A stretch of 48,055 bases of DNA from contig CAJPGC010000009.1 of NCBI GenBank assembly GCA_905339405.1, forward strand, positions 1 to 48,055, in the 5' to 3' direction. The translations under genes were made by a program, and so were the position numbers. Positions 3,110 to 33,863 of this stretch are shown piece after piece; the first letter of the stretch is position 1, and every line of letters starts with the position of its first letter. Below the pieces are notes generated by a model, which was not told the origin of the DNA, ran no database searches, and saw only the letters and a list, made by a program, of their open reading frames with translations. This DNA comes from an uncultured bacterium (lineage in GTDB: Bacteria; Desulfobacterota; GWC2-55-46).

Positions 3110-3190
3110 TCTTCGCTCCGGGCTCCTCAGAATGACAAAACTGAAAAAAAGTTATTCTTTCATTCTGAGCGAAGCGAAGAATCCCGGCAT
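3110..3190. repeat. CAGAATGAC / CATTCTGAGCGAAGCG palindromic repeat
   Basis: Two inverted arms, TCTTCGCTCCG..CTCAGAATGACA and CATTCTGAGCGAAGCGAAGA, face each other across an A-rich centre. The same arm sequence recurs several times in 7040-7480. It is non-coding and part of the 477-bp repeat block between kdsA and kdsD. Confidence 0.65.
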
Positions 3191-3216
3191 TTGTGAAGAG
3201 CCGCTTCGCTGCCATC

Positions 3217-3410
3217 CCCCTCGATTGAGGAGAGATGGATGGGGTGAACAGTCTTGTCACCCTCCCCTCAATCCCCTCCCATCAAGGGAGGGGACTTTAA
3301 GTAATTTGAGCGAAACCGGAGCGATTATCTCATCCCCTCTTTTCTAAAGAGGGGCAAGGGGAGATTAGAATAGTAGATAATCCCCCTCAGTCCCCCTTTA
3401 GAAAAGGGGG
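3217..3410. repeat. Two C/G-tract inverted-repeat elements side by side
   Basis: Bases 3217-3295 hold CCCCCTCGATTGAGG-type arms and an inverse copy of the window's first 36 bases. Bases 3333-3410 hold a related palindrome, TCCCCTCTTTTCTAAAGAGG facing CCCCCTTTAGAAAAGGGGG. The second lies within 10 nt of the kdsA stop and could form a strong terminator-like hairpin on either strand. No gene is supported here. Confidence 0.65.
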
Positions 3411-3417
3411 AAGTACA

Positions 3418-27051: not shown

Positions 27052-27079
27052 TTGACAGTGGATGGTTTTGGGTTAGGCT
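27052..27079 (+). promoter_or_regulatory. Possible promoter of the CBS-domain gene
   Basis: TTGACA (27052-27057) is followed after 16 nt by TAGGCT (27074-27079), with a weak -10. It is placed 50-80 nt upstream of the CBS-domain start codon. The -35 is perfect; the -10 match is poor. Confidence 0.4.
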
Positions 27080-27130
27080 TTAATCATGGCGTAAAAAGGC
27101 GTAAAAAGCCCCACAAGGGGGTGAGAAAAA

Positions 27131-27541
27131 ATGCTGGTCAAACAGATAATGCAGAAGAAGATAGTGACGGTAAACCCGGACGCGACCATAAGAGAGACCG
27201 CGAAGAAGATGAAGGATTACCGGGTCGGCTACCTTCTCGTGACGAACGGGGAATCGATAAAAGGTTGCGTTACCGACAGGGACCTGGTCATCTGGCTGGC
27301 GAGCGGAAAAGACCCGGACGCGACGAGGATCGACGGTATAATGCAATCGAGCGTAGTGACGGCTCCTCCGGACACAGATGTTTTCGACGCCTCGAAGCTG
27401 ATGGCGCGAAAGAAGGTAAGAAGGCTCCCGATAGTCGAGAACAGCAAACTCATCGGGCTGGTTTCGGTTTCAGACCTCGCGTCGGTCATCGAGGAGGAAG
27501 TGGACAACTTCCTCCATGTGGAAGAGGCTTACCAGATATAA
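27131..27541 (+). CDS. CBS-domain pair protein
   Basis: A 136-residue cytoplasmic protein made of two CBS domains (about 1-60 and 70-130). These form one Bateman module that binds adenine nucleotides such as AMP, ATP or SAM in known relatives. Visible motifs: ETAKKMKDYRVGYLLVTNGE, KGCVTDRDLVIWLASG, RKKVRRLPIVEN and LIGLVSVSDLASVI. GGGGGTGAG lies upstream of the ATG. It is a stand-alone sensor. The tandem RNA array begins 40-165 bp downstream on the same strand. Confidence 0.92.
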   Translation: MLVKQIMQKKIVTVNPDATIRETAKKMKDYRVGYLLVTNGESIKGCVTDRDLVIWLASGKDPDATRIDGIMQSSVVTAPPDTDVFDASKLMARKKVRRLPIVENSKLIGLVSVSDLASVIEEEVDNFLHVEEAYQI

Positions 27542-27580
27542 AGGCTTGGAAGTTGTTCCCCCGGGCTGGAAAGTCGGCTC

Positions 27581-27690
27581 TTAAGAGCAGAGATAAGGTG
27601 CTGTCTTCGTGATGGTTTCCGAAACCTGCTCTTTAAAGCCGGAAACCGGCCCAGGGAAACAAAAGCGGCAGAGCGTTAAACCTCTGCCGC
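27581..27690 (+). ncRNA. Leader hairpins of the tandem structured RNA
   Basis: Three stems precede the repeats. TTAAGAGCAG (27581-27590) pairs with CTGCTCTTTAA (27626-27636), one base bulged. GCCGG-AAA-CCGGC lies at 27638-27650. GCGGCAGAG (27665-27673) pairs perfectly with CTCTGCCGC (27682-27690). The last resembles the terminator at 28060-28095 in sequence but has no T-run. The loop of the first contains GTTTCCGAAAC, echoing the CCGAAAC of the repeats, so this may be a decayed fourth copy. No coding frame is credible. Confidence 0.45.
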
Positions 27691-27706
27691 TAATGAATCG
27701 ATGGTT

Positions 27707-27826
27707 GCCTCCGTGTCCGAAACTTGGTATCTCTAAGAAGGATCATAGTGTGATTACCTTCGGTTCGCCGAGTGGGGTCGCTCAAGGTCCTCCTTAGAGA
27801 GGCCAAGATAACCGAAGCGCGGGGGC
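27707..27826 (+). ncRNA. Tandem structured RNA motif, copy 1
   Basis: P1: GCCTCCGTG (27707-27715) pairs over 9 bp with CGCGGGGGC (27818-27826). Joining loop CCGAAAC. P2: CTTGG/CCAAG. P3: CTCTAAG/CTTAGAG, followed by an apical hairpin with CGG-TTCG-CCG. The 3' joining strand is GATAACCGAAG, then P1 and GCAAG. The layout is the same in copies 2 and 3, with different P1/P2 bases but kept pairing. It is the longest copy (120 nt). Orientation is set by the plus-strand terminator downstream. No known riboswitch class is recognised. Confidence 0.65.
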
Positions 27827-27833
27827 AAGAGTT

Positions 27834-27939
27834 GTCTCCGTGGCCGAAACTACGGTTTCTAAGAAGAGTGATAGGGCTTTCCTTCGGGAAGGTCCCGAAG
27901 CCTCTCCTTAGACACTGTAGATAACAGAGCCACGGAGGC
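27834..27939 (+). ncRNA. Tandem structured RNA motif, copy 2
   Basis: P1: GTCTCCGTGGC (27834-27844) pairs over all 11 positions with GCCACGGAGGC (27929-27939). Joining loop CGAAA. P2: CTACGGT/ACTGTAG. P3: TCTAAG/CTTAGA, then AAGAGTGAT. The apical hairpin has TTTCC-TTCG-GGAAG. 3' strand GATAACAGA. Eight nt (AAGAGTTG region) separate it from copy 1. It is the clearest of the three copies. Confidence 0.7.
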
Positions 27940-27946
27940 AAGAGCT

Positions 27947-28055
27947 GTCTTCGCGGGCCGAAACTCCGGTTTCTAAGAAGAGTGATAAGGGCTCATCCTA
28001 CGGGATGGTTCCGGGATTCTCCTTAGAGACTGGAGATAACCGAGTCCGTGAAGGC
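27947..28055 (+). ncRNA. Tandem structured RNA motif, copy 3
   Basis: P1: GTCTTCGCGG (27947-27956) pairs over 10 bp with CCGTGAAGGC (28046-28055). Joining loop CCGAAAC. P2: CTCCGGT/ACTGGAG. P3: TCTAAG/CTTAGA, then AAGAGTGAT as in copy 2. The apical hairpin has CATCC-TACG-GGATG, a UNCG-type loop. 3' strand GATAACCGAG. The terminator stem starts 5 nt later, so a structural switch between copy 3 and the terminator is conceivable. Confidence 0.7.
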
Positions 28056-28059
28056 AAAG

Positions 28060-28095
28060 GGCGGCAGGCGTCAAAACCTGCCGCCTTATTTTTTT
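28060..28095 (+). terminator. Rho-independent terminator of the structured RNA
   Basis: GGCGGCAGG (28060-28068) pairs perfectly with CCTGCCGCC (28077-28085), followed by TTATTTTTTT. On the minus strand there is no T-run, so it serves plus-strand transcription only. It ends 13 nt before the stop of the convergent YjdF-like gene. Confidence 0.88.
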
Positions 28096-28108: not shown

Positions 28109-28870
28109 CTATTTAGGCTCCAGGTCCTTTCCGTTTTTAACACTCTTGGGCATACTCTCGGGCTTAGGCCTCAATATCTTCGGCTGCCTTTCAAGGCGTT
28201 CCTTGAGCCTGTCGATCCGCACGCCCATGCCGAAGACTTCCCCGAGGGGCATGGCGAGCCTTTTTCTGGTATCGGGGTTCGAGTACTTGACGTAGAGCAT
28301 GCCGATGGCAGCCGTTATCAGCCCGCCCAAAAAGTCGTTGATGAGGTCCCACATAGTGTCAGCGAGGCCGTCCTGCGTGGTCTTGCCGAAGAGGTTGTCG
28401 ACGGCGAACTCCATTATCTCCCAGATGCCTCCCATGGCCATGGCGAAGGTCACGGTGAAAAAGCCTATGAACGGGAGCGAGAGGCGCACTTTACGGGTAT
28501 AATTTAGCGTGTAGACGACCACGAAGGCCAGAAGGCCCACAACGGCGCTGCCGTATATGTGCAGGGCCTTGTCATAGAGGCGCACCTTCTGGTAGAAGTC
28601 CATCCCCTCTCCCATGAAGGTATTCAGGAATATCGAGAGCGTAATGAGGAGGTCGAGCTCGAAAGGGAGCGTTACCCTGTAGCTCCTTTCCACGAGGCTC
28701 GGGACCAGGGAAAGTATGACGGAGAAGACGAGCAGTATGGAAAAAAGATACTCCCCCTTGTAAAGCTCCACCGGCAGGAGGAGCACCATAAGGAGCTTCA
28801 TGAACCAGGAAAGGCCCGTCGTCACAGACAGGCTCCGCCAGTTCCTCAGCATGTTAAAAAGGTTCAACAT
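28109..28870 (-). CDS. YjdF-like (DUF2238-type) integral membrane protein
   Basis: A 253-residue inner-membrane protein with about six helices. Conserved acidic/His motifs in or near the membrane are YDKALHIYGSAVVGLL, GGIWEIMEFAVDNLFG and DTMWDLINDFLGGLITAAIG, which resemble the YjdF/DUF2238 family. The tail (about 215-253) is Lys/Pro-rich and cytoplasmic. Start 28870 is an ATG with GAGG 5 nt upstream; the TTG three codons earlier is less likely. A strong promoter precedes it. Function is unknown. Confidence 0.75.
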   Translation of the reverse strand: MLNLFNMLRNWRSLSVTTGLSWFMKLLMVLLLPVELYKGEYLFSILLVFSVILSLVPSLVERSYRVTLPFELDLLITLSIFLNTFMGEGMDFYQKVRLYDKALHIYGSAVVGLLAFVVVYTLNYTRKVRLSLPFIGFFTVTFAMAMGGIWEIMEFAVDNLFGKTTQDGLADTMWDLINDFLGGLITAAIGMLYVKYSNPDTRKRLAMPLGEVFGMGVRIDRLKERLERQPKILRPKPESMPKSVKNGKDLEPK

Positions 28871-28910
28871 GGCCCTCAACCGCTTTCATGGTTGGAAAAA
28901 CGACCTTTTA

Positions 28911-32454: not shown

Positions 32455-32892
32455 TCAGGGCGTCTGTCCGTTCAATTCGGCGATGAGCGCTATGTGCAGG
32501 TTCGCCAATTTCCTCGGGTCGCCTTCGGGATGGTACGCGACTTCGAGCTTCTGCCAGTCCTCTACCTCCGAGCTCGGTACTTTCGCGCTGAAGACCCCGT
32601 TTCCGTCGCGGTCGGTCTTGAAGCTGTTCCCCTGCCCGACGCCCTGCACGTCCACCCTGGGCTGCTCGTTCACGAACCAGACCGTAAAGACTGAATCAGG
32701 CACCATGTTCTCAACCTCTATGGTTATCTCCTTGGTGCCGGATTCGACGTCCTTTATCGACGCCTCGCCCTTTGCCTCTTCCCAGAGGCTGCTCTGCATC
32801 TCGATCTTCTCTGCAGCCGCCCACGAGTATGAAGCGGACAGGCTCAAGGCCAGGGCCGCCGCGATTGCCGCTGCCGCCGTTCTGAAGTCCAT
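32455..32892 (-). CDS. Secreted paralogue A of a three-gene family
   Basis: A 145-residue exported protein with signal peptide (MDFRTAAAAIAAALALSLSA..). The mature part has WEEAKGEASIKDVESGTKEI, PDSVFTVWFVNEQP, GNSFKTDRDGNGVFSAKVP and KLEVAYHPEGDPRKLANLHI. The same blocks, in the same order, occur in the two genes upstream. AAAGGAGG precedes the ATG. The fold is probably a small beta-sandwich. The family is not recognised. It is 15 bp downstream of paralogue B. Confidence 0.8.
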   Translation of the reverse strand: MDFRTAAAAIAAALALSLSASYSWAAAEKIEMQSSLWEEAKGEASIKDVESGTKEITIEVENMVPDSVFTVWFVNEQPRVDVQGVGQGNSFKTDRDGNGVFSAKVPSSEVEDWQKLEVAYHPEGDPRKLANLHIALIAELNGQTP

Positions 32893-32907
32893 TCATCCCT
32901 CCTTTGC

Positions 32908-33330
32908 CTACCGCTCTGACAAAAGTACGCCGGTCAAGGTCAGCTCGGCGCTTTCCACATCCTCTGTGTCCCTGTTGGGGTGGTGCATCACCTCTATCTT
33001 GTCCCAGTCCTTGAACTGTTCAGAGGGTATCCTCACCACGGAATAGCCCCTTCCGAGCTCGTCGGACTCGAAAATAAGGTCGCCGGAGCCTATGCCCATC
33101 TCGCCCATTAGAGGGGCGTCGTTTATGAGCCAGACCGAGTAGGTCGCGTTGGGCTCAAGCCCGCTGGCGTCTATCCTTATCTCCTTCTCGTCGTCCTGCA
33201 CGTCGGTTATCACTGCCTCTCCCCTCGCGTCGTCCCAGTCCTCGCCCCTCAGGTCCACGGTGCTCTCATCCGGTGCCTGGACTGACACGCCTAGCGCGAG
33301 GGCAGCAGCCAAAGTCAACTCCTTGAACAT
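32908..33330 (-). CDS. Secreted paralogue B of a three-gene family
   Basis: A 140-residue protein with a short signal peptide (MFKELTLAAALALGVSVQAP). The shared blocks are WDDARGEAVITDVQDDEKEI, PNATYSVWLINDAP, LIFESDELGRGYSVVRIP and KIEVMHHPNRDTEDVESAEL. The ATG at 33330 is preferred, with GAGG 8 nt upstream; the GTG three codons earlier overlaps that site. It forms a likely two-gene operon with A. Confidence 0.8.
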   Translation of the reverse strand: MFKELTLAAALALGVSVQAPDESTVDLRGEDWDDARGEAVITDVQDDEKEIRIDASGLEPNATYSVWLINDAPLMGEMGIGSGDLIFESDELGRGYSVVRIPSEQFKDWDKIEVMHHPNRDTEDVESAELTLTGVLLSER

Positions 33331-33359
33331 CACGCTCACCTCTTGTCAGGGTTAAAACG

Positions 33360-33391
33360 AAAAGGGCCTCCTTCCCTGAATCGGAGGCCCC
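33360..33391 (-). terminator. Rho-independent terminator after paralogue C
   Basis: GGGGCCTCCGATTC faces GGAGGCCC with a short loop; on the minus strand it is followed by TTTTCGTTTT. It ends paralogue C's transcript before paralogue B, so C is transcribed separately. Confidence 0.8.
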
Positions 33392-33416
33392 TTGTTTTGC
33401 GCTCTCCATTAGAGCC

Positions 33417-33863
33417 TTAGTCGAAGATCCCGCCAAGATCCCCTCTCAAGGCTATCTGAGAGTTCTGCAGGTCGCTCGGGTCGTTGTTGGGGTGATGGGC
33501 TATCTCGATGACGTCCCACCTGTTGAGCTCGCCTTCCCCAACGGTCGCGACGAAGGTCCCGCTGCCGGACGCGTCGGTCCTGAACGAATAGGGATCGACG
33601 CCAAGCCCCTGGAGCCTCTCTCCAGGCTCGTCCTTGGCGAGCCATGCCGTATAGACGGAATTGGGCTTGAGCCCGCCGACGTTGATGGTTATCTGCTCCT
33701 GCTCGTAAATCGTATCGACCCCTTCCTCGATTATCGCCGTGCCTTTCGCGTCCTTGAATCCCATGGAACCTTCAAGCGGCAGTTCATAAGATGCGAAGGC
33801 GGCTGTAGAGAAAAGGGCAGCCGCCGCTAGAGATAACGCGGCCCCTATAAAACTCCTTTTCAT
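33417..33863 (-). CDS. Secreted paralogue C of a three-gene family
   Basis: A 148-residue protein with signal peptide MKRSFIGAALSLAAAALFST..FA. Shared blocks: FKDAKGTAIIEEGVDTIYEQ, PNSVYTAWLAKDEP, YSFRTDASGSGTFVATVG and VIEIAHHPNNDPSDLQNSQI. AAAGGAGG precedes the ATG. The HHPN.D motif and the PNSVYT.WL motif define the family in this window. Function is unknown; envelope location is inferred from the signal peptide. Confidence 0.8.
   Translation of the reverse strand: MKRSFIGAALSLAAAALFSTAAFASYELPLEGSMGFKDAKGTAIIEEGVDTIYEQEQITINVGGLKPNSVYTAWLAKDEPGERLQGLGVDPYSFRTDASGSGTFVATVGEGELNRWDVIEIAHHPNNDPSDLQNSQIALRGDLGGIFD

Follow-up and report, generated by a model that had tools for sequence, protein, structure and literature searches.

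Introduction

Bacterial RNAs built from repeated or extended hairpins include the protein-titrating small RNAs CsrB, CsrC and RsmY/Z, of which the CsrB-like ones carry repeated hairpins with GGA in their loops, and 6S RNA, a single-copy hairpin of ~180 nt with a central open bubble. CBS modules are regulatory, and the function of stand-alone CBS proteins is mostly unknown. A CBS module binds ribosomal RNA in archaeal hibernating ribosomes (PMC13324472), and the CBS protein MJ0729 has been reported as DNA-binding, as cited in PMC3795697. Long bacterial 3′ UTRs are presented in PMC7821165 as able to govern how stable their own mRNA is and how it is translated, or to yield small RNAs; pairing between the 5′ and 3′ UTRs of icaR is described there, and the hilD 3′ UTR figures as a long regulatory 3′ UTR in PMC4027200. 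Here we compare with these systems a tandem array of structured units that follows a CBS-domain gene in the window, by which we mean the whole stretch of 48,055 nt of an uncultured member of the Desulfobacterota that was analysed.

Results and Discussion

Array layout and fold

An earlier note on this DNA had described three tandem units of a folded RNA preceded by simple leader hairpins. All three units were found on the plus strand, as U1 (27705–27828; covariance model 79.6 bits, E 2.4e-17), U2 (27832–27941; 103.5 bits, E 9e-24) and U3 (27945–28057; 94.1 bits, E 3e-21). The leader, on the other hand, is not made of simple hairpins: it contains a fourth plus-strand unit that the note had missed, U0 (27553–27662; 92.4 bits, E 9e-21), and a spacer hairpin between U0 and U1 (AGCGGCAGAG...CTCTGCCGCT, 27664–27691, plus strand) that lacks a plus-strand T-tract and has equivalents 3′ of U0 in three other genomes (G001, G029 and G023). 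The covariance model was seeded with 13 units from five genomes, and since U0 of the window is one of these, its 92-bit score holds by construction and its independent support comes from its orthologues in seven other genomes. When the model was searched against the bacterium's own genome, all matches with E < 1 sat at the array locus. The stems quoted in the note, its UNCG-type apical loops and its plus-strand terminator were likewise present, the last identified by a terminator scan at 28058–28094 as GGCGGCAGG...CCTGCCGCC followed by TTATTTTTTT. Folding was far beyond chance, with z-scores of −6.0 (U1), −7.2 (U2) and −7.1 (U3) and none of 200 shuffles equally good. The region was also rightly described as free of any credible gene: open reading frames across the array are short and lie in differing frames and strands. 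We rejected a coding region on this ground and because the lengths of homologous units differ by non-multiples of three.

Each unit is an interrupted hairpin of 110–124 nt, a rod of three stems (P1, P2/P3 and an apical stem) into which two A-rich internal loops are set. The base of P1 is conserved in U1–U3 (YUGYCU...AGGCAA), the purine strand of P2/P3 (UAAGARRAG) is strongly conserved, and the apical loops are mainly of the UNCG or GNRA type; a recurrent GGA loop pattern was not found in the units. U0 has an internal loop of the form UAA/GAA (GAUAAG/CGAAAC) as its loop 2, and U1–U3 have it in inverted orientation as their loop 1. Such loops make up 8 of 33 same-size internal loops in the units, whereas background folds of this genome gave 104 of ~17,300 (~0.6%). 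Judged by its letters alone, this loop is a candidate for the UAA/GAN internal-loop motif: it is small and has a UAA strand opposite a GAA strand. The joining-loop letters that had been described as fixed (CCGAAAC and GATAACnGA) hold in the copies of the window and in sister species; in other genera only a looser motif is found, and the form GNUAN/NAAAC is kept in G005, G019, G024 and G026. An anti-Shine-Dalgarno role of the CCUCC strand of P3 was rejected, as this strand is buried in a stable stem and no test supported the role.

Selection, covariation and strand

Covariation in homologues bore out the proposal of a folded, functional RNA. In the 13-unit alignment, to which we limited the pair statistics because MAFFT had aligned the most distant ones unreliably in P2/P3, 21 of 35 stem pairs had changed on both sides with pairing kept. 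Pair counts for these 13 homologous units lay above all 500 shuffles, and each slid control was far lower; expressed as paired cells, the units reached 92%, shuffles 79% and slid controls 40–54%. When genera g1 and g6 were compared, the loops of U0 were 78–90% identical, the stems of U0 64–67% and the third positions of codons in the neighbouring CBS gene 50–58%. Identity of the U0 loops above that of both stems and third codon positions indicates a selected RNA and not slow drift. The loops of U3 gave a lower identity between the same genera (45–53%).

With orientation set by the CBS gene, the fold of the plus strand was the better one in 28 of 28 units (by a mean of 11.5 kcal/mol), and single mismatches were G-U in 67 cases versus A-C in 25. 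Because the units share descent, these counts are not of independent cases. An RNA from the minus strand was rejected, its fold being the worse one in every unit. On the evidence of sequence and predicted fold, the array is a genuine, selected plus-strand RNA.

The CBS gene and its transcription unit

The array starts 11 nt past the stop of a gene for a two-CBS-domain protein of 136 aa (27131–27541, plus strand; Pfam CBS E 1e-30, two stretches), and the link to this gene, like the fourth unit, was absent from the earlier note. A sigma-70-like promoter, TTGACA-16-TAGGCT (27052–27079, plus strand), precedes the gene and is kept upstream of nearly all CBS orthologues aligned, in the form TTGACA-16/17-TAnnnT; the stretch CTTGACA...TTTTGGGnTAnnnT is conserved across 19 aligned regions upstream of CBS. 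A simple promoter scan missed 27052–27079 because its −10 element is non-consensus. The distance from the CBS stop to the first unit is mostly 9–51 nt, which leaves no room for a promoter, and a conserved promoter was found only upstream of CBS and not in this gap. A promoter of the array may lie within the CBS coding region, at the 3′ end of which synonymous conservation shows only a slight rise. The 5′ UTR carries a hairpin over the CBS ribosome-binding site (GCCCC-ACAA-GGGGG, 27108–27121, plus strand), and a C-run opposite the Shine-Dalgarno G-run recurs, with variable spacing, in RNA-bearing relatives. This is a hint, drawn from the predicted pairing, that the same CBS mRNA may be under translational control.

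The array thus has the layout of a structured 3′ UTR, following the CBS coding region with no terminator between and with a terminator at its end. The gene beyond it (28109–28879, minus strand) encodes a membrane-protein-like product of 256 aa with no Pfam or NCBIfam match, so that no co-directional gene lies 3′ of the array; in the window and all relatives examined, the gene that follows the array points towards it. At five loci in other genera (L046–L049 and L052) a gene of ~300–450 aa, convergent to CBS, stands between the array and the membrane-protein gene. The same gene faces CBS in another family of the taxonomic order (L057) and is absent from this place in the window's genus and in g6. 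Elsewhere in the window (32455–33863, minus strand) lie three tandem paralogous genes for small secreted-type proteins of 143–148 aa that have a VW-containing core in common.

Distribution and history

The relatives are uncultured Deltaproteobacteria from groundwater and other metagenomes (e.g., GWA2_54_12, GWA2_55_10 and UBA5799), and sister genomes have similar DNA at the corresponding position. Of 30 family genomes, 15 carry a gene closely related to the CBS gene of the window, and in 14 of these 15 an array of one to four copies lies directly 3′ of it: four units in the window, three each in G001 and G005, two in G026 and in each of six g6 genomes, and a single unit in G014, G021, G019 and G024. 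The covariance model did not detect the units of G019 and G024 or units 2 and 3 of G005, which were assigned from their position and fold. G015, the remaining family member with the CBS gene, has short ordinary hairpins only, and more distant CBS orthologues of the class (53–57% identical) have ordinary terminators or unrelated sequence behind them; the CBS gene therefore does not need the array. In a search of 63 class genomes, none that lacks the CBS gene gave an array match, nor did a sample of 395 phylum members give one outside the family, and these large-set searches used stricter filters that could miss diverged copies. Given this distribution, the array arose within the family and travels with the CBS gene. 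In a tree of the units, with weak support at several forks, the U0 units of genera g1 and g6 cluster together, as do U1, U2 and U3 of the window's genus. Read from this tree, an array of two units seems to have expanded to three and four within the window's genus.

Other repeats of the genome were noted alongside. An imperfect palindrome of ~110 nt (AAAAAGATCCAGATGCGAGG...GGTCTTTTTCAGC; e.g., L071 9381–9495) is dispersed in the bacterium's own genome, and a similar repeat of >100 nt lies between CBS and U0 in three g6 genomes (L032, L036 and L038); by its sequence, the dispersed palindrome looks like a MITE or REP-type repeat. Long CCCTC-rich hairpin repeats (CTCCCTCCCCCTTGATGGGGGAGGG) recur at 1–235 and 3181–3415 of the window and at L063 17741–17915. 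A genome-wide hairpin scan by energy only was not informative, as GC-rich coding DNA also folds strongly, and a scan with z-scores brought up, for the most part, ordinary terminators and dispersed repeats. Two pattern scans of viral contigs gave no match, and an association with phages was rejected.

Interpretation

We tentatively favour the reading that the array is a specific, cis-acting structured 3′ UTR of a single-gene CBS mRNA, which on synteny, fold and the single conserved promoter we place somewhat short of an even chance. Transcription from the promoter at 27052–27079 would run through the CBS gene and the four hairpins to the terminator, giving one transcript of ~1 kb in which the CBS mRNA carries a structured 3′ UTR of ~550 nt. 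Each unit would form a rigid rod with UAA/GAA loops in either orientation and a stable tetraloop cap. Because the conserved internal loops repeat on a rigid rod, a multivalent protein-binding platform is suggested, and the repeated UAA/GAA-type loops are probably such a platform, as a candidate. An RNA-binding protein, perhaps the CBS protein, could then dock at each of the repeated loops, and either occupancy or dsRNA processing of the array would determine how stable the CBS mRNA is or how well it is translated; as an alternative output, the array might be released as a stable small RNA. The loss of the exact loop letters in distant genera counts against the 3′ UTR reading, as do G015 and the more distant orthologues, in which the CBS gene stands without the array; against the protein-binding proposal, no RNA-binding feature is known in the CBS protein itself. 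A more specific version, in which the CBS protein and the array form one ligand-gated RNA–protein system, with the protein translated from the very mRNA that carries the array, sensing an adenylate through its CBS pair and binding the loops, appears to us improbable. If true, it would amount to a previously undescribed regulatory RNP, multivalent and tuned by copy number.

Much of the same evidence could also be read as an independent or processed RNA acting in trans: an abundant multi-domain small RNA, either freed from the CBS transcript or transcribed from a promoter of its own, that would titrate a protein as CsrB-type sponges do. The modules are repeated and have one recurrent internal-loop type, the loops are conserved beyond the stems, the array has its own terminator, and its copy number varies between one and four much as the valency of a sponge might. 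This reading has to contend, however, with the strict linkage to the CBS gene, with the 9–51 nt after the CBS stop, where no promoter is conserved, and with the species that have one copy, which would be poor for a sponge; overall, we regard it as unlikely, if still a serious contender.

The array could instead consist of unspecific 3′-end hairpins, either expanded terminators or BIME-like palindromes, that only block exonucleases and read-through. Such a role would suit the convergent-gene setting seen in all relatives, both strands do fold to some extent, and in genus g10 the single units carry a terminator T-run directly after the unit itself. The window's fold, however, is much larger than that of ordinary terminators in its own genome and is followed by a separate ordinary terminator, and neither the plus-strand bias nor the covariation and loop conservation between genera would be expected of plain hairpins. 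REP/BIME elements (PMC3116915, PMC12306157) are similarly palindromic, intergenic and 3′ of genes, but they are dispersed, whereas the array is confined to one genomic locus, and its conserved orthologous copies show compensatory changes and keep their internal loops. We rejected a REP/BIME, MITE or other mobile palindrome because the array matches (E < 1) are restricted to this locus, and we consider unspecific hairpins in general unlikely, if only slightly more so than the trans-acting reading. Tandem riboswitch aptamers that would regulate a downstream gene in cis, which the earlier note had entertained and which the tandem copies and conserved joining loops do resemble in architecture, are hardly credible given loops that diverge between genera and the lack of any Rfam riboswitch match, and a classical riboswitch is effectively excluded because the array ends in a terminator beyond which all downstream genes, in the window and in all relatives examined, are convergent and so leave nothing to control.

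Comparison with known RNA families

The statement that the units match no known class stood up in Rfam 15, where searches of the window, of the array alone (to E 10) and of 10 homologous loci returned no family above the gathering threshold; a match of the array to CsrC (E 2.6) covers the terminator part only. The bacterium has a proper 6S gene elsewhere in its genome (L059, contig C48; 69 bits), and we rejected 6S RNA as an identity for the tandem units of ~110 nt. A second 6S-like match (L060, contig C8; 32 bits) lies at a contig end and is below the cut-off. In the open-access literature we found no paper that joins a CBS domain with a structured noncoding RNA.

We file the array, on its sequence features, as a new and narrowly distributed family of structured 3′-UTR RNA with an unusual tandem, modular build, in which a single regulatory-type gene is extended at its 3′ end by one to four diverged rod-like modules. 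It offers a concrete candidate RNA partner for stand-alone CBS proteins and suggests that bacterial 3′ UTRs are able to carry modular, repeated and selected RNA structures. Like CsrB, CsrC and RsmY/Z, the array repeats hairpin modules in tandem and could thereby offer a binding motif in several copies; it differs from them in its long interrupted rods, in being without the GGA-loop pattern and in its linkage to a protein gene. With 3′ UTRs of the hilD and icaR type, as these are portrayed in PMC4027200 and PMC7821165, it has in common a long noncoding stretch between a regulator-type gene and a terminator and a possible action in cis on the fate of the mRNA. What sets it apart from the hilD type, in so far as the account in PMC4027200 does not describe hilD in such terms, is its composition of one to four covarying modular hairpins under structural selection.
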